Shown here: piece by piece, positions 7,448 to 58,965 of the stretch | Position numbering within the stretch: the stretch's first letter is position 1 | How the letters are laid out: every line of letters starts with the position of its first letter | DNA from: an uncultured SAR86 cluster bacterium | GTDB lineage: Bacteria > Pseudomonadota > Gammaproteobacteria > Magnimaribacterales > D2472 | Direction: 5' to 3' | Assembly (NCBI GenBank): GCA_905478035.1 | Contig: CAJQGX010000039.1 | Span: forward strand, 1-64,000 | Length of the DNA stretch: 64,000 nucleotides | Made by a program: the position numbers and the translations under genes | Notes under the pieces: model-generated | What the model saw: only the letters and a program-made list of their open reading frames with translations | What the model was told of the DNA's origin: nothing | Databases searched by the model: none

Positions 7448-8161
7448 CTAACTATACATATTACCAAGATAGACTTTTTTAACTAATTCATCCTTAATTA
7501 GTTCTTCACTTATTCCCTTCGCAATAACCTGACCATTATTTATAACAATTGCATTATCACAAATATCTAGAGCCTCTCTTACATTATGGTCAGTAATAAG
7601 AATAGCAATACCCTTATCTTTTAAATTTTTTAAAACTTTTTTTATTTCATCTATAGCAATAGGATCTATTCCAGCAAAAGGCTCATCCAAAAGTATTATC
7701 TTTGGAGAGGCGGCTAGTGTTCTCGCTATTTCCACTTTCCTACGTTGGCCACCTGATAGCTGCCTTCCTTTGTGGTTTAGAATTTCTTTAAGACTAAATT
7801 CTTCAATTGATTGATTCATAAACTTATCAATATTATTTTTGTCTTTAAAGGATATTTCTGCAAGCCCATAAAGGTTTTCATAAACAGTTAATTCTTGGAA
7901 GATTGAAGGCTCTTGAGGTAAATATTTAATACCCATATTAGACCTTTTATGCATTGGAAGATGAGAGACATCTAAATTATTAAAAATAATTTCTCCAGAT
8001 TCAAGTGGTATAAGTCCAGCTATCAAATAGAATGTAGTAGTTTTTCCTGCTCCATTTGGACCCAATAAACCATTTATAGATCCTTTATTAATTTCGAAGC
8101 TAATTTCATTAACAATAATTTTATCTTTTATGGACTTAGAAACTTTTTTTAAATTTAGCAT
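7448..8161 (-). CDS. lptB: LPS transport ATPase LptB
   Basis: Cytoplasmic ABC ATPase of the LptB2FGC complex that extracts LPS from the inner membrane and pushes it across the periplasm. All ABC motifs are present in 237 aa: Walker A (GPNGAGKTT, about 34-42), Q-loop (LPQEPSIF), signature (LSGGQRRKVEIAR), Walker B (IILLDEPFAGID) and H-loop (ITDHN). The LSGGQRRKVEIAR and DHNVREAL strings are diagnostic of LptB among ABC ATPases. It lies 12 nt after lptA in the usual lptA-lptB-rpoN order. The permeases LptF and LptG are outside this window. Confidence 0.97.
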   Translation of the reverse strand: MLNLKKVSKSIKDKIIVNEISFEINKGSINGLLGPNGAGKTTTFYLIAGLIPLESGEIIFNNLDVSHLPMHKRSNMGIKYLPQEPSIFQELTVYENLYGLAEISFKDKNNIDKFMNQSIEEFSLKEILNHKGRQLSGGQRRKVEIARTLAASPKIILLDEPFAGIDPIAIDEIKKVLKNLKDKGIAILITDHNVREALDICDNAIVINNGQVIAKGISEELIKDELVKKVYLGNMYS

Positions 8162-8173
8162 TTTAATATCAAG

Positions 8174-8590
8174 CTATTTGCTAGAGCTCATTTTTCCATT
8201 TTCAGGATTAAAAATAATAGAATTAGATGAGATATTAATATTGTCATAGTTCATTACCGCAGACCCAATTAATTGAACTTTGCTGTTATTAAAGAAAATT
8301 ATTTTGCTAGCATTGCCATTAAATGTTTTCGAACTATCTAATGAGCTTATTGAAGAGGGCAGTCCTTCTAAAGTCATTGTTTTATCTAATTCATTGTATA
8401 TAGCACTATCTGACTTAAGGACTAATTTACCTGTATCTAATATTACATTATTTGAAAATATAATTTGATTATCTTTAGGTGAAATAACTATAGATGTAGC
8501 ATCAATCTCTAGATTTTCAATATATGATTCAGAATATATAACCGAGTTAAAAAATATAGCGCAGATAAAAAATAGTTTACTGTAATACAA
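8174..8590 (-). CDS. lptA: LPS transport periplasmic bridge protein LptA
   Basis: Periplasmic beta-jellyroll protein that polymerises into the bridge carrying LPS to LptDE. The 138-aa product has a signal peptide (about 1-20, cut near YSES) and an OstA/LptA domain with the typical 'I..DA..' and 'VILDTGKLVLKSDSAIYNE' strands. It is shorter than E. coli LptA (185 aa). The start is TTG, just 1 nt downstream of the kdsD stop; no ATG is available before the signal peptide. The two genes that normally separate kdsD from lptA, kdsC and lptC, are both missing, so this could in principle be a merged LptC/LptA function, but I see one short jellyroll only. Confidence 0.88.
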   Translation of the reverse strand: MYYSKLFFICAIFFNSVIYSESYIENLEIDATSIVISPKDNQIIFSNNVILDTGKLVLKSDSAIYNELDKTMTLEGLPSSISSLDSSKTFNGNASKIIFFNNSKVQLIGSAVMNYDNINISSNSIIFNPENGKMSSSK

Positions 8591-47477: not shown

Positions 47478-48494
47478 ATGGCTAAATCAAAAGATGTAGG
47501 TAATAAAACACTAAAAGATACACTTGCGGATATCGACAGTCATTTCGGTAAAGGCACCGTTATGAGAATGGGAGATAGGGAGATATTAGATATCCCATCT
47601 ATTTCTACTGGTTCTGTAGGGTTAGATATTGCACTTGGAATTGGTGGTATCCCAAAAGGAAGAGTAACTGAAATATATGGGCCTGAGTCTTCTGGAAAGA
47701 CAACTTTAACACTTCAGATAATTGCTCAATGCCAAAAAGATGGAGGAACATGCGCATTTATAGATGCTGAACATGCTCTCGATCCTCAGTATGCAGAAAA
47801 GTTAGGTGTTAATGTCGATGAATTATTACTTTCTCAACCAGATACAGGAGAGCAAGCACTAGAGGTTGCTGATATGTTAGTTAAATCAAAAAGTGTTGAT
47901 TTAGTTATCATTGATTCTGTTGCTGCATTAGTTCCAAGAGCAGAAATTGAAGGTGAAATGGGCGATCATCATGTAGGTTTACAGGCAAGACTGATGTCAC
48001 AAGCGTTAAGAAAAATAACTGGCAATATCCAAAGATCAGGAGCAACTGTTGTTTTTATTAACCAGATAAGAATGAAAATTGGTGTTATGTTTGGAAGTCC
48101 TGAGACTACTACAGGTGGTAATGCTTTAAAATTTTACTCTTCAGTAAGACTAGACATTAGAAGGATTGGTGCTGTTAAAGAGGGAGATGAAATAATGGGT
48201 AACGAAACAAGGGTAAAAGTTGTTAAAAATAAAGTTTCACCTCCATTCAAACAAGCTGAATTCCAAATAATGTATGGCCAAGGAATAAATTCTGAGGGCG
48301 AAATACTAGACTATGGAAATAAATTAGGATTAATAGAAAAGTCTGGAGCATTTTATAAATTGAATGGTGAAACCATTGGACAAGGGAAAGCAAAGGCAGG
48401 ATTATTCCTTAAAGAAAATGCAAAAATTCGTGAAAATCTTCTTGAAGAAATACGTAAAGAATATATAGCAAGCAAAGCAAAATCTACAAAGTAG
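47478..48494 (+). CDS. recA: recombinase RecA
   Basis: Forms filaments on single-stranded DNA for strand exchange and SOS induction. The 338 aa contain Walker A ([13 protein letters not shown], about 69-81), DAEHALDP, Walker B region [22 protein letters not shown], loop 2 ([27 protein letters not shown]) in family form, and [14 protein letters not shown]. Strong AAAGGAGA ribosome site, unusual among the weak sites of this window. recX, which often follows, is absent. A clear terminator follows the stop. Confidence 0.98.
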
Positions 48495-52645: not shown

Positions 52646-54412
52646 ATGAGATCTCACTATTGTGGAGAAATTACATCCAAGAATCTTGATGAAGATATAA
52701 CAATTTGTGGCTGGATACATAAAAGACGTGATCATGGTGGCGTTATATTCTTAGATGTTAGAGATATTAAGGGAATTTGTCAGGCAGTTATAAATCCCGA
52801 TAATTCTAAGTCATTCGAGATAGCAGAAACTTTAAGAAATGAATTTGTTGTAAAGATATCAGGTAAAGTTAATCAAAGGCTTGAAGGGACAGTAAATAAA
52901 AATATGACTACTGGAGAAGTAGAGATTAATGCTGAGAATATAGTTATTCTAAGTAAGGCAGCCACTCCAGTTTTTCCACTTGATGATTATCAGGATGTTA
53001 ATGAAGATGTTCGCTTAAAGAATAGGGTTTTAGATTTAAGAAGACCTGAGATGAATCATAGGATTGTTACAAGATCAAAAATAAGTTCAACAATAAGAAA
53101 CTATTTAGATTCCAATGAGTTTCATGAAATTGAAACGCCAATTTTAACAAAAGCAACGCCAGAGGGCGCAAGAGATTTTATTCTACCAAGTAGAGTTCAA
53201 TCTGGTAATTTCTTTGCCTTGCCTCAGTCTCCTCAGTTATTTAAACAGTTACTGATGATGGGGGGCTTAGATAAGTATTATCAAGTTGCTAGATGTTTTA
53301 GAGATGAAGATCTTAGAGCAGATCGTCAACCAGAATTTACTCAAATAGATATTGAGGCTTCTTTTGTTGATCAAGAATATATTATGGAAATCGGTGAAAA
53401 TATGGTGAAAGAGCTTGTCCATAAGTTTTGCGGTGATGAATTAGAGACATTTCCTATCTTAGATTGGCATGATTCTATGAGAGATTATGGATGTGATAAA
53501 CCTGACTTAAGAATACCTTTAAAGTTAGTAGAGGTTTCTGAATTAGTTCAAAATGAAGAATTTAAAGTCTTCTCTGAGCCTGCTAAAGATAATAAATCTA
53601 GGGTTGTTGCTCTAAAGATACCAGGTGGTAATTCTCTATCAAGGGGACAGATTGATGAATATACTAAGTTTGTCTCAAAGCTGGGAGCTAAGGGGCTAGC
53701 GTATATCAAGGTCAATGATAAAAGTGATATCGAAAATGGCTTGCAATCACCAATTCTTAAGTTTCTTAAAAGTGAGACTATAGAATCTATCGTATCAGAA
53801 TTAGATTTACAAAATGATGATCTTCTATTCTTTGGTGCAGGTAAAAGTTCTGTTGTAAATTTAAGTATGAGTAGTTTAATTAAAAAAATAGGTGATGATT
53901 TAGATATGTATTCATCTAAATGGTCTCCATGCTGGGTTGTAAACTTCCCAATGTTTGAAAGAAACAGTGAAGGCAACCTTACATCACTTCATCATCCATT
54001 TACTCTTCCAAAGTGTTCTACTAAAGAGTTGACTGAATCAGCAGATACTGCACTAGCTCATGCATATGATGTTGTACTAAATGGATATGAAATTGGAGGA
54101 GGCTCCTTAAGAGTCTTTGACACTGAAATGCAAAAAACAATATTCAATATATTAAATATTACAGAAGAAGAAGCTGATAGTAAGTTTGGTTTCTTATTAA
54201 AAGCTCTCTCATCAGGATGTCCTCCTCATGGAGGAATAGCATTTGGTCTTGATAGGATTGTTATGCTTATAACAGATACTACAAATATTAGAGATGTAAT
54301 TGCATTCCCTAAAACACAGAGTGCAACTTGTTTATTAACTGATGCTCCAAGTAAAGTTGATAGCTCTCAACTAGAAGAACTAAAAATTATAAGTACTCAC
54401 AAGGAAGAGTAG
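52646..54412 (+). CDS. aspS: aspartyl-tRNA synthetase
   Basis: Class IIb synthetase of the bacterial type. The 588 aa have an N-terminal OB-fold for the anticodon ([21 protein letters not shown]), motif 1 region and flipping loop [14 protein letters not shown], motif 2 ([20 protein letters not shown]), the GAD insertion (about 290-410) and motif 3 ([14 protein letters not shown]). Length equals E. coli (590 aa). Whether it is strictly Asp-specific or also charges tRNA-Asn cannot be judged here. Ends 2 nt before yebC. Confidence 0.98.
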
Positions 54413-54414
54413 AT

Positions 54415-55152
54415 ATGGCAGGACATTCCAAATGGGCGAACATTAAGCATAGAAAGGCTCGTCAAGATGCATCGAGAGGTAAGGTTTGGACTAAAGTTAT
54501 CAGAGAGATAACTGTTGCTGCAAAGGGTGGGCCCGACCCTGATGACAATCCTAGATTAAGATTGGCCCTAGATAAGGCTAATGCAGCAAATATGCCAAAA
54601 GATAATATTAAAAGAGCTATAGAAAAAGGCTCTGGTACTGGTGAAACAGGTGCATTAGAAGAAATTATCTTTGAAGGATATGGGCCAGGTGGTGTTGCAA
54701 TATTGGTAGAAACTATGTCAGATAATAGAAACAGAACTGTTTCTGATGTGCGTCATGCTTTTTCTAAATTTGGAGGTAATCTTGGTACAGATGGGTCTGT
54801 ATCATATCTTTTTAATAAAATTGGGATAATTCATATTTCAAAAGATACTTCTGAAGAGGAGTTGATGGACATTGTATTAGAGTCTGGTGCTGATGATCTT
54901 ATCGATGAAGGAGAATATTTTGAAATTATTACTTCAAGTACTAATTTAAGTAATGTGCTTGAATCATTAAAAAATAATAATATAGATAATATCAATGCAG
55001 AGCTTACCTTGAGGGCAGAGACATCAGTAGCTATTGATCAAGAAATGTCTGAAAAAGTTCTAAAAATCATGGATTTTATGGATGAGCTTGATGATGTGCA
55101 AGAAGTCCATACTAATGCAGAATTTCCTGATAATTTTGAATTAAAAGAGTAA
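54415..55152 (+). CDS. yebC: YebC/PmpR-family protein
   Basis: YebC-type protein, described both as a transcriptional regulator and, more recently in related members, as a ribosome-linked factor. The 245 aa start with the invariant MAGHSKWANIKHRKARQDA and contain NMPKDNIKRAIEKG and EGYGPGGVAILVE. Length equals E. coli (246 aa). In gammaproteobacteria it is followed by ruvC, ruvA and ruvB; here a different nuclease gene follows by 3 nt. Confidence 0.97.
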   Translation: MAGHSKWANIKHRKARQDASRGKVWTKVIREITVAAKGGPDPDDNPRLRLALDKANAANMPKDNIKRAIEKGSGTGETGALEEIIFEGYGPGGVAILVETMSDNRNRTVSDVRHAFSKFGGNLGTDGSVSYLFNKIGIIHISKDTSEEELMDIVLESGADDLIDEGEYFEIITSSTNLSNVLESLKNNNIDNINAELTLRAETSVAIDQEMSEKVLKIMDFMDELDDVQEVHTNAEFPDNFELKE

Positions 55153-55155
55153 ATA

Positions 55156-55581
55156 TTGACTATAAACTCAAGAAATAAAGGCGCAACTTTTGAGAGACAA
55201 ATAGCTAATGCGCTTATTAATGATCTTAATTTAACAAATCCAGTTAAAAGAATACTTGAGCAAACTAGAACTAAAGAACTCCCAGATCTTATGCTGGGTA
55301 ATTGGTGTATAGAATGCAAAGCATATGGAACAGGTGCTGAGCCAAGGCCTGATTGGTGGGATCAAGTCCTAGCATCCTCAAAAGGAGCGGATTTAAAACC
55401 AGCATTAGTTTATAAATTTAATAATAGGCCAATTAAAGTAAGAATTTTGGCCTCATCGATAAACAATGAAATTAAAAATACTTTAGTAACAGTTGATTTA
55501 TTGTGGCCTGATTTTATCCAAATCTTGCTGGAATTATTTCAAAAAGATATTGAGCTTCATGAAAAAAACTTTCAAGCCTAA
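55156..55581 (+). CDS. PD-(D/E)XK nuclease, phage/Hjc resolvase-like, at the ruvCAB locus
   Basis: A 141-aa protein with a complete PD-(D/E)XK active site: helix-1 Glu in KGATFERQIANAL (E13), Asp in LPDLML (D44), and ECK (E53, K55). The rest, including RPDWWDQVLASSKGADLKP and LVYKFNNRPIKVRI, follows the pattern of small archaeal Hjc and phage Holliday-junction resolvase-like nucleases as I remember them. It is not RuvC (no RNase H fold motifs). It fills the place of ruvC-ruvA-ruvB between yebC and ybgC. Start is TTG, 3 nt after yebC; no in-frame ATG comes before the active site. Fold class is firm; junction resolution is inference. Confidence 0.75.
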   Translation: MTINSRNKGATFERQIANALINDLNLTNPVKRILEQTRTKELPDLMLGNWCIECKAYGTGAEPRPDWWDQVLASSKGADLKPALVYKFNNRPIKVRILASSINNEIKNTLVTVDLLWPDFIQILLELFQKDIELHEKNFQA

Positions 55582-55978
55582 GGATTTACATTTAAAAGTA
55601 TATGTAGAGGACACAGACTTCCAAGGCTTTATATATCATGCAAATTATATTAAATTTTTTGAAAGAGCCCGATCAGAATTTCTTGAATATAATAATATTT
55701 CTCAAAAAAAACTAAGAGACGAAAATCTTGCATTTGTTGTCAAACGAATTGAAACAAATTTTCTGTCTCCAGGTAGGCTTGGAGATGCTTTGTCAGTAAA
55801 GTCTTTAATTGAAAAAAAATCCAATGCCCGCATAATATTTAATCAACAAATAGTTGATTTAAATGATTCAAGGGAGCTATGCAATGCCTTGGTTGAGGTA
55901 TGCTTAATTAACATTAAATCAAAAAAACCTAAACCCTTGCCTGATGATTTACTATTGTTACTTAACGAGGAAAATTAA
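55559..55978 (+). CDS. ybgC: acyl-CoA thioesterase YbgC
   Basis: Hot-dog-fold thioesterase tied to the Tol-Pal cluster and linked to phospholipid enzymes in E. coli. The ATG at 55559 gives 139 aa; the family motif VYVEDTDFQGFIYHANYIKF with catalytic Asp is at about 12-31, followed by FFERARSEFLE. A longer frame from 55493 adds residues unlike the family and lies wholly inside the nuclease gene, so I reject it. Overlaps the nuclease gene by 23 nt; tolQ starts right after the stop. Confidence 0.95.
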   Translation: MKKTFKPKDLHLKVYVEDTDFQGFIYHANYIKFFERARSEFLEYNNISQKKLRDENLAFVVKRIETNFLSPGRLGDALSVKSLIEKKSNARIIFNQQIVDLNDSRELCNALVEVCLINIKSKKPKPLPDDLLLLLNEEN

Positions 55979-56653
55979 ATGAATGACATTTCTGTATTAA
56001 ATCTCTTTCTTGAGGCCGGAGTAGTTGTAAAAATTGTAATGATGCTCTTACTTCTTGCATCACTATTAACATGGATAGTTATAGTTGAGAGATATAACTT
56101 TTATAAAAAAATCAAAGATATTAATTCAAGTTTCCATAATAGATTTTGGAATGGTGAAGATTTAAATACTTTATTTGATGAAATTGAAAGTGAGAATATT
56201 CCTCTTTATGGATCTCTGAGCGTATTTCAAAGTGCTTTCAAAGAATTTAAACAGCTTAATCCTCAAGAGGTCATAACTGAGTTAGACTTAGAGGGAATAA
56301 ACAGATGTATGAGAGTTGCTATCGCAGCTGATGAAGAGGAGATGAATAAACACCTACCTTTTCTTGCAAACGTTGGTTCAGTTAGCCCATATATAGGTCT
56401 TTTAGGGACTGTTTGGGGCATTATGACCTCATTTCAAGGCTTATCTGATGCAACACAAGCAACTATAAATGCAGTGGCGCCAGGTATCTCTGAAGCCCTT
56501 GTAGCAACTGCAATGGGTTTATTTGCTGCTATTCCAGCAGTTATTGCTTTTAATAAATACACTTCTGAACTTGAAACCATGAGCCAATCGACCTTAATAT
56601 TTTCTGAAGAGCTTGCAAGTATTTTTTATAAACAATCTATAAAAAATAAATGA
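55979..56653 (+). CDS. tolQ: Tol-Pal system protein TolQ
   Basis: Inner-membrane pentamer of the TolQ-TolR motor that uses proton force to drive outer-membrane constriction. The 224 aa have three membrane segments (about 15-38, 135-157 and 170-192). Motifs LPFLANVGSVSPYIGLLGTVWGIM and ISEALVATAMGLFAAIPAVIAFN mark the family. It begins with no gap after ybgC and overlaps tolR by 4 nt. MotA/ExbB-type homologues exist, but order with TolR, TolB and Pal settles it. Confidence 0.97.
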   Translation: MNDISVLNLFLEAGVVVKIVMMLLLLASLLTWIVIVERYNFYKKIKDINSSFHNRFWNGEDLNTLFDEIESENIPLYGSLSVFQSAFKEFKQLNPQEVITELDLEGINRCMRVAIAADEEEMNKHLPFLANVGSVSPYIGLLGTVWGIMTSFQGLSDATQATINAVAPGISEALVATAMGLFAAIPAVIAFNKYTSELETMSQSTLIFSEELASIFYKQSIKNK

Positions 56654-57072
56654 TCTATAGGTTAGCTAAGAAAAAAACTCTTAAGGCTGAAATCAATGTG
56701 GTGCCATACATTGATGTCATGCTTGTATTGCTAATTATTTTTATGGTTCTTTCGCCACTACTTATTCAAGGTATTGAAGTTAATCTTCCTAAAACAGATA
56801 CAACAAAAATGAGTGTTCAGAATGAACCATTAGTAATCTCTATAGATAGCTCAGGTAAATATTATTTAAATCTCGGAGAAGAAGCTCTTCCAATAAGTAT
56901 TGATGAGCTTAAAAGGAAATCCATGGTCATTTTTGATGCGAATCCTGATATCGAAGTGGTATTTCAAAGTGATAAAGATGTAACATTTGATAGTGTTGCC
57001 AAGGCTATGGCAGCAATTCAGAGCGTAGGCATATCAAAAATAGGAATAGTGACCACAGGTTATGGAAATTAA
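56650..57072 (+). CDS. tolR: Tol-Pal system protein TolR
   Basis: Membrane-anchored partner of TolQ whose single helix carries the essential proton-binding Asp. The 140 aa include INVVPYIDVMLVLLIIFMV (Asp about 23), then a periplasmic peptidoglycan-binding domain with GIEVNLPKTD and the C-terminal VQSVGISKIGIVT. Length equals E. coli (142 aa). Overlaps both tolQ and tolA, so the stoichiometric partners are translationally coupled. Confidence 0.97.
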   Translation: MIYRLAKKKTLKAEINVVPYIDVMLVLLIIFMVLSPLLIQGIEVNLPKTDTTKMSVQNEPLVISIDSSGKYYLNLGEEALPISIDELKRKSMVIFDANPDIEVVFQSDKDVTFDSVAKAMAAIQSVGISKIGIVTTGYGN

Positions 57073-57694
57073 ATCTGATTATCTTATAGCTTCATTTTTT
57101 TCATTTTTAATACACGCTTCTCTTATTTTATTTTTAATGGATTTCTTTTATTCTGAAAAGCAAATCCGTCCAGTGCTTAGCAAAACAGTAGATGTAAATC
57201 TTATTTTTGAAGAAGAAATAATTAAAACAAAGGAGCCTCTCGCTGTAAATGAAGTACCTATAATTAAAAACACATTTAATAAGACTATAGATAATAAGAT
57301 AATAGAGTTGAGTCAGGATATTGAGAAAATCGGTTCAGATGAAACCTTTATAAATCTAAATGAGCTAATTCAGATAGATAAAGCTGTAATAGCATCAAGT
57401 GAAGAGAAAGAAATCAATCAAATAAGTAATATGATTATAAATATGATTGAATCGGCTTGGGTAAAACCTAAAAATATACAAGAAGGGCTAATTTGTGATC
57501 TGAGATTGGCTGTTAATAAAAATGGAAGGATAGTCTCTGTAAATCTTATTAAAAGCAGTGGTAACATTAGGTTCGATAATTCAGCAATTAAAGCTGTTTA
57601 CAGAGTTGAATCATTTAATTTTTATAATAAAATTTCTAGCAACCTTTATACAGATAATTTTAAAAAAATAGTTATAACTTTTAATCCTTCATGA
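57062..57694 (+). CDS. tolA: TolA, short periplasm-spanning form
   Basis: Links the TolQR motor to TolB and Pal across the periplasm. The 210 aa show one membrane helix (about 8-28), a short middle (about 40-120) without the long Ala/Lys helix seen in E. coli, and a TonB/TolA-type C domain (about 125-210, with IESAWVKPKN and CDLRLAVNKNGRIVSVNLIKSSG). E. coli TolA has 421 aa; the spanning domain II accounts for the loss. Overlaps tolR by 11 nt and tolB by 4 nt. Confidence 0.9.
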   Translation: MEIKSDYLIASFFSFLIHASLILFLMDFFYSEKQIRPVLSKTVDVNLIFEEEIIKTKEPLAVNEVPIIKNTFNKTIDNKIIELSQDIEKIGSDETFINLNELIQIDKAVIASSEEKEINQISNMIINMIESAWVKPKNIQEGLICDLRLAVNKNGRIVSVNLIKSSGNIRFDNSAIKAVYRVESFNFYNKISSNLYTDNFKKIVITFNPS

Positions 57695-58965
57695 AAAAAA
57701 TACTAATAATATTTCTTGTACCACAATTAATTTTTGCCGAGCTTGTTTTGGAGATCACCCAAGGATCAGATGATCCGTTTGTTATCGCTCTGTTAGATTT
57801 TGATGGTCAAGATGAAATTACCAATCAAATAAATACTATAGTTAACAATGATCTTAATAGGACAGGGGAATTTAAGATTATAAAAAAAGATAAGTTGCTA
57901 TCTTCTCCTAAAAGCGAGGAAGAAATTAATTTTAATGATTTTAAGTTGCTCAATATTGATTATATTGTCATAGGATCTTTAGAGTCAGAAAATGAGTTTA
58001 ATCTATCAGCCTCATATCAAATTTTCAGTGTCTTAAGTAAGAAAAAAATAAGAACATCAAAAGTTTTAGGCATCCCAAACAAAATAAAACAATTAGCTCA
58101 CTATATAAGTGATGGAATCTATGAAGAAATTACTGGCTTACAAGGCGTGGCTTCAACAAAAATATTATATGTATCTGAACTAAAAGAAAATAATGAATCT
58201 CTTTATCAGCTTATAGTTGCTGATGCTGATGGAGTCAATGAACAAATACTTTTAAAAAGCTTCGAGCCTATTATTTCACCAGCATGGTCACCTGATTCAA
58301 AAGAAGTAGCATACGTTTCATTTGAGACAGGAATTGCAAAGGTATATATTCAAAATATAGCAAACGGAGATAGAAGGGTTGCAATACAGAACTCTAAACA
58401 GATAAGTTCCCCAGCATGGTCACCAAATGGAAATTTTCTCTCTTTAACAATGTACCAAGATGGCAATGCAGAAATATATATCCTTAACTTAAAAAATAAT
58501 AATCTAACAAGACTTACCAACCACTATTCAATTGATACTGAATCCTCATGGTCTCCTGATGGATCTAGTATCATGTTTACTTCTGGAAGATCTGGCTCAC
58601 CACAGTTATACGAAATTAATCTGAGAAAATTTAATTCAAAGCCACAAAGAATCACATTTGAAGGAAATTACAATGCAAAAGGATCTTATCTTAAGAATGG
58701 TGATGGGATTATATTTGTTCACAGATCTAGTGATGATTTCAAAATAGCATTGAAGTACTTTAATGAGAATTTCATTAGACCATTAACTGAGTCCAAATTA
58801 GATGAGTCTCCTAGTATTTCTCCAAACGGTAATGTGATAATCTATGCTGTAACTGAAAATGGCGAGAATTTGCTATCTGGGCTTACTCTTAGCGGTGCAA
58901 GATTTAGACTTCCAGCAAAAAAAGGTGAAGTAAGAGAGCCTGCATGGTCAGGGTTTTTAAGGTAA
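57691..58965 (+). CDS. tolB: Tol-Pal system protein TolB
   Basis: Periplasmic adaptor that binds Pal and TolA. The 424 aa comprise a signal peptide (about 1-16), an N-terminal alpha/beta domain, and a six-bladed propeller with the repeat SPAWSPDSKEVAYVS, SPAWSPNGNFLSLT, ESSWSPDGSSIMFTSGRSG and so on, which is diagnostic. Length equals the family (430 in E. coli). pal follows 15 nt downstream. Confidence 0.97.
   Translation: MKKILIIFLVPQLIFAELVLEITQGSDDPFVIALLDFDGQDEITNQINTIVNNDLNRTGEFKIIKKDKLLSSPKSEEEINFNDFKLLNIDYIVIGSLESENEFNLSASYQIFSVLSKKKIRTSKVLGIPNKIKQLAHYISDGIYEEITGLQGVASTKILYVSELKENNESLYQLIVADADGVNEQILLKSFEPIISPAWSPDSKEVAYVSFETGIAKVYIQNIANGDRRVAIQNSKQISSPAWSPNGNFLSLTMYQDGNAEIYILNLKNNNLTRLTNHYSIDTESSWSPDGSSIMFTSGRSGSPQLYEINLRKFNSKPQRITFEGNYNAKGSYLKNGDGIIFVHRSSDDFKIALKYFNENFIRPLTESKLDESPSISPNGNVIIYAVTENGENLLSGLTLSGARFRLPAKKGEVREPAWSGFLR

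Follow-up and report, generated by a model that had tools for sequence, protein, structure and literature searches.

An Hjc-like PD-(D/E)XK nuclease, a candidate Holliday junction resolvase, in the ruvC-ruvA-ruvB slot of the order SAR86

In most Gammaproteobacteria ruvC adjoins yebC, and the order of genes at this place in E. coli is aspS-nudB-yebC-ruvC. RusA, a phage-borne resolvase, is able to act without RuvABC, and together with RecG it provides a bypass of E. coli ruv mutants. RuvAB is absent from less than 2% of the sequenced bacteria, mostly parasites, and all organisms with RuvC are said to have RuvAB (PMC3403352). The same work mentions RecG-RusA and describes RecU as accompanying a retained RuvAB while being encoded away from ruvAB (PMC3403352). 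The Hjc of phage Tth15-6 (7bgs/7bnx), whose catalytic set is E10-D40-E53-K55, cleaves Holliday junctions (PMC8805305).

The DNA analyzed here, referred to as the window, is a whole stretch of 64,000 nucleotides from a marine SAR86 lineage; its closest named loci come from SAR86 cluster bacteria, among them SAR86A and SCGC AAA076-P13. An earlier note on this sequence had claimed that the whole Ruv resolvasome was lost, that a small phage or Hjc-type nuclease took its slot, and that RecG might migrate branches in its stead.

The nuclease gene and its slot

The conserved gene order in the window starts with aspS (52646..54412, + strand) and continues through yebC (54415..55152, +), the nuclease gene (55156..55581, +) and ybgC, the acyl-CoA thioesterase gene of the tol operon (55559..55978, +; ATG start at 55559), to the block tolQ-tolR-tolA-tolB (55979..58965, +). 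The nuclease ORF has a TTG start and encodes 141 aa; it begins 3 nt past the yebC stop (55152), its 3' end overlaps ybgC by 23 nt, and no methylase adjoins it at this locus. The residues E13, D44, E53, and K55 are all present in the window translation, and the size, position and active-site residues ascribed to this ORF in the earlier note were all confirmed. In an alignment of 30 diverged SAR86 homologues these four residues are invariant, as are R14, R32, and Q70, and the four also align and are invariant with the proteins from family f40 and from a prophage that are described below.

The sole match of the nuclease in a Pfam search was to PF24608 PDDEXK_15 (E=1.2e-9; 38.8 bits versus a gathering cut-off of 27), described as "Phage putative PDDEXK endonuclease". 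It also matched PHROG 244 (E=6.6e-13), labeled "RusA-like Holliday junction resolvase"; the names of both families are putative annotations of phage proteins. With a score above the curated cut-off and conserved catalytic residues, the protein belongs to PDDEXK_15/PHROG 244. The Pfam search gave no match to the RuvC profile PF02075 or to the RusA profile, "RusA-like" being a PHROG label only, and neither the RecU profile nor the Hjc profiles PF01870 and NF040854 were matched in Pfam and NCBIfam. The median dN/dS, with synonymous sites near saturation in several pairs, was 0.032 for the nuclease, 0.029 for yebC, 0.034 for tolR, and 0.137 for ybgC. Due to its PF24608 and PHROG 244 matches, its order-wide conservation and its low dN/dS, this ORF is real and not a product of chance; it is under strong purifying selection and behaves like an old housekeeping gene.

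The order-wide search covered 203 SAR86 genomes of ~0.7–1.8 Mb, which are mostly incomplete MAGs or SAGs. The nuclease was detected in 181 of them, including 38 of the 40 high-quality genomes and all 22 genera, and nearly always as a single copy; its absence from the other 22 genomes (two of them high-quality) is presumably due to assembly gaps. The nuclease directly followed yebC in 86/86 loci where the contig reaches upstream, and it occupied the slot in all four SAR86 families. When the same slot was read in other genomes by means of a TIGR01033 (yebC) search, ruvC was found downstream of yebC in RuvC-positive controls. The order yebC-nuclease-ybgC-tolQ was present in all 49 loci examined from the window's family (f1), preceded by aspS in those that extend far enough, and the 19 loci from families f2 and f3 had the same gene order. 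In f4, yebC-nuclease was found in 18 of 19 loci, the contig of the remaining one starting at the nuclease. The order yebC-nuclease-ybgC, which the earlier note had proposed to look for in related genomes, is found in f1–f3; most f4 loci proceed from the nuclease directly to tolQ with no recognizable ybgC, and three have no recognized tol gene within reach. The f4 loci in which ybgC is unrecognizable between nuclease and tolQ, while the nuclease is kept, are L113–L124, L127, L129, and L130.

Distribution of RuvABC, RecA, and RecG

RuvC was not detected in any of the 203 SAR86 genomes, including closed or near-closed ones of 92–97% completeness, and the positive controls were detected. Similarly, RuvB above the cut-off was found in none of 107 genomes from the window's family and none of 59 from the other three families (0/166), and RuvA in only one of the 203 genomes (G149). 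This RuvA lies beside an RND transporter on a 3.2-kb contig; in view of the short contig and of a bin with 3% contamination, it was rejected as a true SAR86 gene and is a probable contaminant. Weak matches to RuvB in the window genome were also rejected, as they correspond to ClpX, FtsH, Lon, and DnaX; likewise, the weak match of ~200 aa that RuvA searches gave repeatedly is RecR. The presence of RuvC in 345 of the 369 genomes of a class sample indicates that the search works and that the loss in SAR86 is unusual. RuvA, RuvB, and RuvC appear to have been lost from the window genome, which is 88% complete, and from the entire SAR86 order. The claimed loss of the whole resolvasome thus holds order-wide, and no intact ruvCAB was found elsewhere in the genome.

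An intact recA (47478..48494, +; TIGR02012, E=1.5e-158) lies within the same window as the nuclease, and Holliday junctions are therefore expected to form in this organism. Based upon profile scores, RecG is full-length in f2–f4 and in five f1 genera, while only Mfd-like scores were obtained for the f1 genera g1 (that of the window), g3, g4, g8, and g9, a set of 66 genomes in which RecG has apparently been lost. Scores near 1e-110 in these genera were read as Mfd because the matches listed at this level in other genomes are frames of 980–1100 aa covering positions 163–609 of the profile; for the window genome this reading rests on matches in other genomes. RecG thus appears to be absent from the window's genus and four others and cannot be the motor there, so that the suggestion of RecG as a possible branch migrator fails for the window organism. 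If the nuclease is a resolvase, it works in these genera without any known dedicated motor.

Fold, phage relatives, and a second nuclease in the same slot

The AlphaFold2 model of the nuclease (pLDDT 85, pTM 0.82) was compared with the PDB by Foldseek, and archaeal Hjc came first (2wcw_D, E=7.9e-4, probability 1.00; 1gef, probability 0.99). The matches are almost solely Hjc, a few weaker ones being restriction enzymes, and among those in BFVD are proteins of phages and archaeal viruses that carry the name Holliday junction resolvase. The motifs I–III of Hjc are present as G9..E13, D44, and E53-C-K55. The TM-scores to Hjc are only about 0.45–0.6, a moderate level that would also fit other PD-(D/E)XK specificities, and nothing significant was found in single-sequence and profile (A3) searches of PDB sequences. 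As sequence alone fails to reach Hjc, the protein is classed, on its predicted structure, as Hjc-like and not as Hjc. The presence of a small phage or Hjc-type nuclease in the ruv slot was in this manner borne out by PF24608, PHROG 244, the Hjc fold and the order-wide slot, and it is Hjc, not a nuclease acting on other substrates, that leads the structural matches.

The gammaproteobacterial family f40 (G238 and G474; 1.1 Mb, 97–98% complete), in which neither RuvC nor RuvB was found, carries a different PDDEXK_15 nuclease of 104 aa between yebC and ybgC (G238:C2:491600-491887 (L141) and L223:5577-5891, –, for G238; L230:2269-2583, +, for G474). This protein matches PF24608 (E=3.4e-9) and, below the threshold, the Hjc profile PF01870 (19.9 versus 21.1 bits); its best match among PDB sequences is 7bgs, the Holliday junction resolvase of phage Tth15-6 (E=8.6e-5), and the top fold match of its model is Hjc 1gef. 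The f40 and SAR86 nucleases share about 29–38% identity and their homology is recognizable (hhalign probability 95%). The low identity, together with the very long branch of the f40 protein in the nuclease tree, suggests that it was recruited separately. In a two-gene (aspS and yebC) species tree bearing upon this independence, SAR86 itself came out non-monophyletic.

A further arrangement was observed in family f139 (L233 from G337, L234 from G445), where yebC-ruvC is directly followed by queE-queC without ruvA or ruvB, and RuvB is absent from G337. The presence here of RuvC without RuvAB is contrary to the statement in PMC3403352.

By tblastn, marine viral contigs were found to carry copies of the nuclease that are 49–59% identical to the query. 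In contigs L239–L249, possibly from SAR86 phages, the nuclease is next to structural and lysis (lysozyme-like) genes, and the flanking genes of the host are absent. In the nuclease tree, which is based upon 140 columns and has many open forks, family-specific SAR86 clades are interleaved with phage branches; this mixing makes it likely that the gene was exchanged between SAR86 and phages, the direction of transfer not being indicated by the tree. A segment of a SAR86 genome at ~6.2–16 kb of L058 (G096:C4), with terminase-like and primase-like genes, is apparently a prophage or phage-derived. A distant PDDEXK_15 copy lies there at 8017–8436, and near-identical copies occur in the viral contigs L319–L321 and L325. 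Other class-level matches to the nuclease (L138, L139, L140, and L142) were set aside, as they are located among phage genes.

Proposed replacement and comparison with known systems

We consider it likely that the slot gene encodes an Hjc-type PD-(D/E)XK Holliday junction resolvase, shared with phages, that took the place of all of ruvC-ruvA-ruvB in the SAR86 ancestor and has stayed fixed as the resolvase, within the gene order aspS-yebC-X-ybgC-tol, ever since. Under this proposal, for which we infer junction cleavage, dimerization, and the order of Ruv loss and nuclease gain, a homodimer would bind a four-way junction that RecA has formed, with E13/D44/E53/K55 and Mg2+ serving in each subunit to nick one of the two opposed strands. 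There is no RuvAB motor, and most SAR86 genera still have RecG; in the window's genus, where RuvAB and RecG both appear to be absent, the junction would be cut where it formed, or moved by spontaneous migration, by RecA or by another helicase. There is perhaps an even chance for the stronger, twofold statement that in the genera without RecG, RecA-bearing free-living bacteria resolve junctions by a stand-alone phage-derived Hjc-type nuclease with no dedicated motor, and that streamlined Gammaproteobacteria arrived at this replacement in the yebC slot on two or more occasions.

The gene could instead be a housekeeping PD-(D/E)XK nuclease of phage origin acting on some other repair substrate (flaps, forks, or mismatches), with RuvABC lost by streamlining and not functionally replaced. 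The functional diversity of PD-(D/E)XK nucleases and the moderate TM-scores to Hjc speak for this, and the tolerance of repair-gene loss is real, given the small genomes of SAR86 and the apparent loss of RecG as well from one subclade. However, in each of the four families the nuclease sits precisely in the ruvCAB slot, its fold matches almost solely Hjc, RecA has been kept, and f40, likewise Ruv-less, took up another Hjc-like nuclease at this very position, which together render this explanation rather improbable. The few weaker fold matches to restriction enzymes would also agree with a restriction-like or anti-phage nuclease inserted by chance after yebC, but a single-copy gene that is vertically kept in 22/22 genera under the low dN/dS given above, and that has no methylase beside it, does not look like one; furthermore, phages themselves carry this nuclease, which fits poorly with a defense gene, and we regard this possibility as very unlikely. 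It is hardly credible that RuvABC is present and was missed in incomplete, masked, or divergent assemblies. The window genome is indeed only 88% complete and some stretches are masked as N (L225), but the closed and near-closed genomes likewise lack RuvC where the controls are positive, RuvB is missing from all 166 genomes, and reading across the usual ruv locus shows the nuclease there in place of ruv genes.

A search of the open literature found no paper that connects SAR86 to ruvC or to Holliday junctions. The type of enzyme is known, but as far as this literature was searched, there is no description of a free-living order in which the whole of RuvABC has been replaced at its native locus. 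That an abundant free-living order of the ocean lacks RuvABC, and partly RecG, and has one candidate gene instead suggests that a phage enzyme can take over from the bacterial resolvasome as a whole. SAR86 thus offers a clean system for studying which tasks require a branch-migration motor, and a function is also proposed for the putative phage family PDDEXK_15/PHROG 244.

Among the known enzymes, archaeal Hjc (PF01870; P. furiosus 1gef, A. fulgidus 2wcw) and the Tth15-6 Hjc have the PD-(D/E)XK fold in common with the SAR86 nuclease, including a G-x3-E helix motif, a D on a strand, and E-x-K on the next strand, and the Tth15-6 catalytic set corresponds to E13-D44-E53-K55. Hjc is the top structural match for both slot nucleases, and the f40 one matches it by sequence too. 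The SAR86 protein differs from Hjc in having PD instead of VD/SD, in containing an extra WWxQV motif and extending further at the C-terminus, and in being a bacterial chromosomal gene with no significant Pfam or PDB sequence match to Hjc. The phage genes of PDDEXK_15/PHROG 244 have structural and lysis genes as neighbors, whereas in SAR86 the gene is fixed in the host and has no phage neighbors. With RusA it shares the likeness to a phage-borne resolvase acting without RuvABC, but RusA belongs to a different family and RecG, its partner, is apparently absent from the window's genus. RuvC has the same position after yebC and the same presumed job, but its fold is of the RNase-H type. Lastly, RecU of the Firmicutes is likewise a PD-(D/E)XK-type resolvase standing in for RuvC; in SAR86, however, RuvAB is gone as well, and the stand-in occupies the ruvCAB slot itself.
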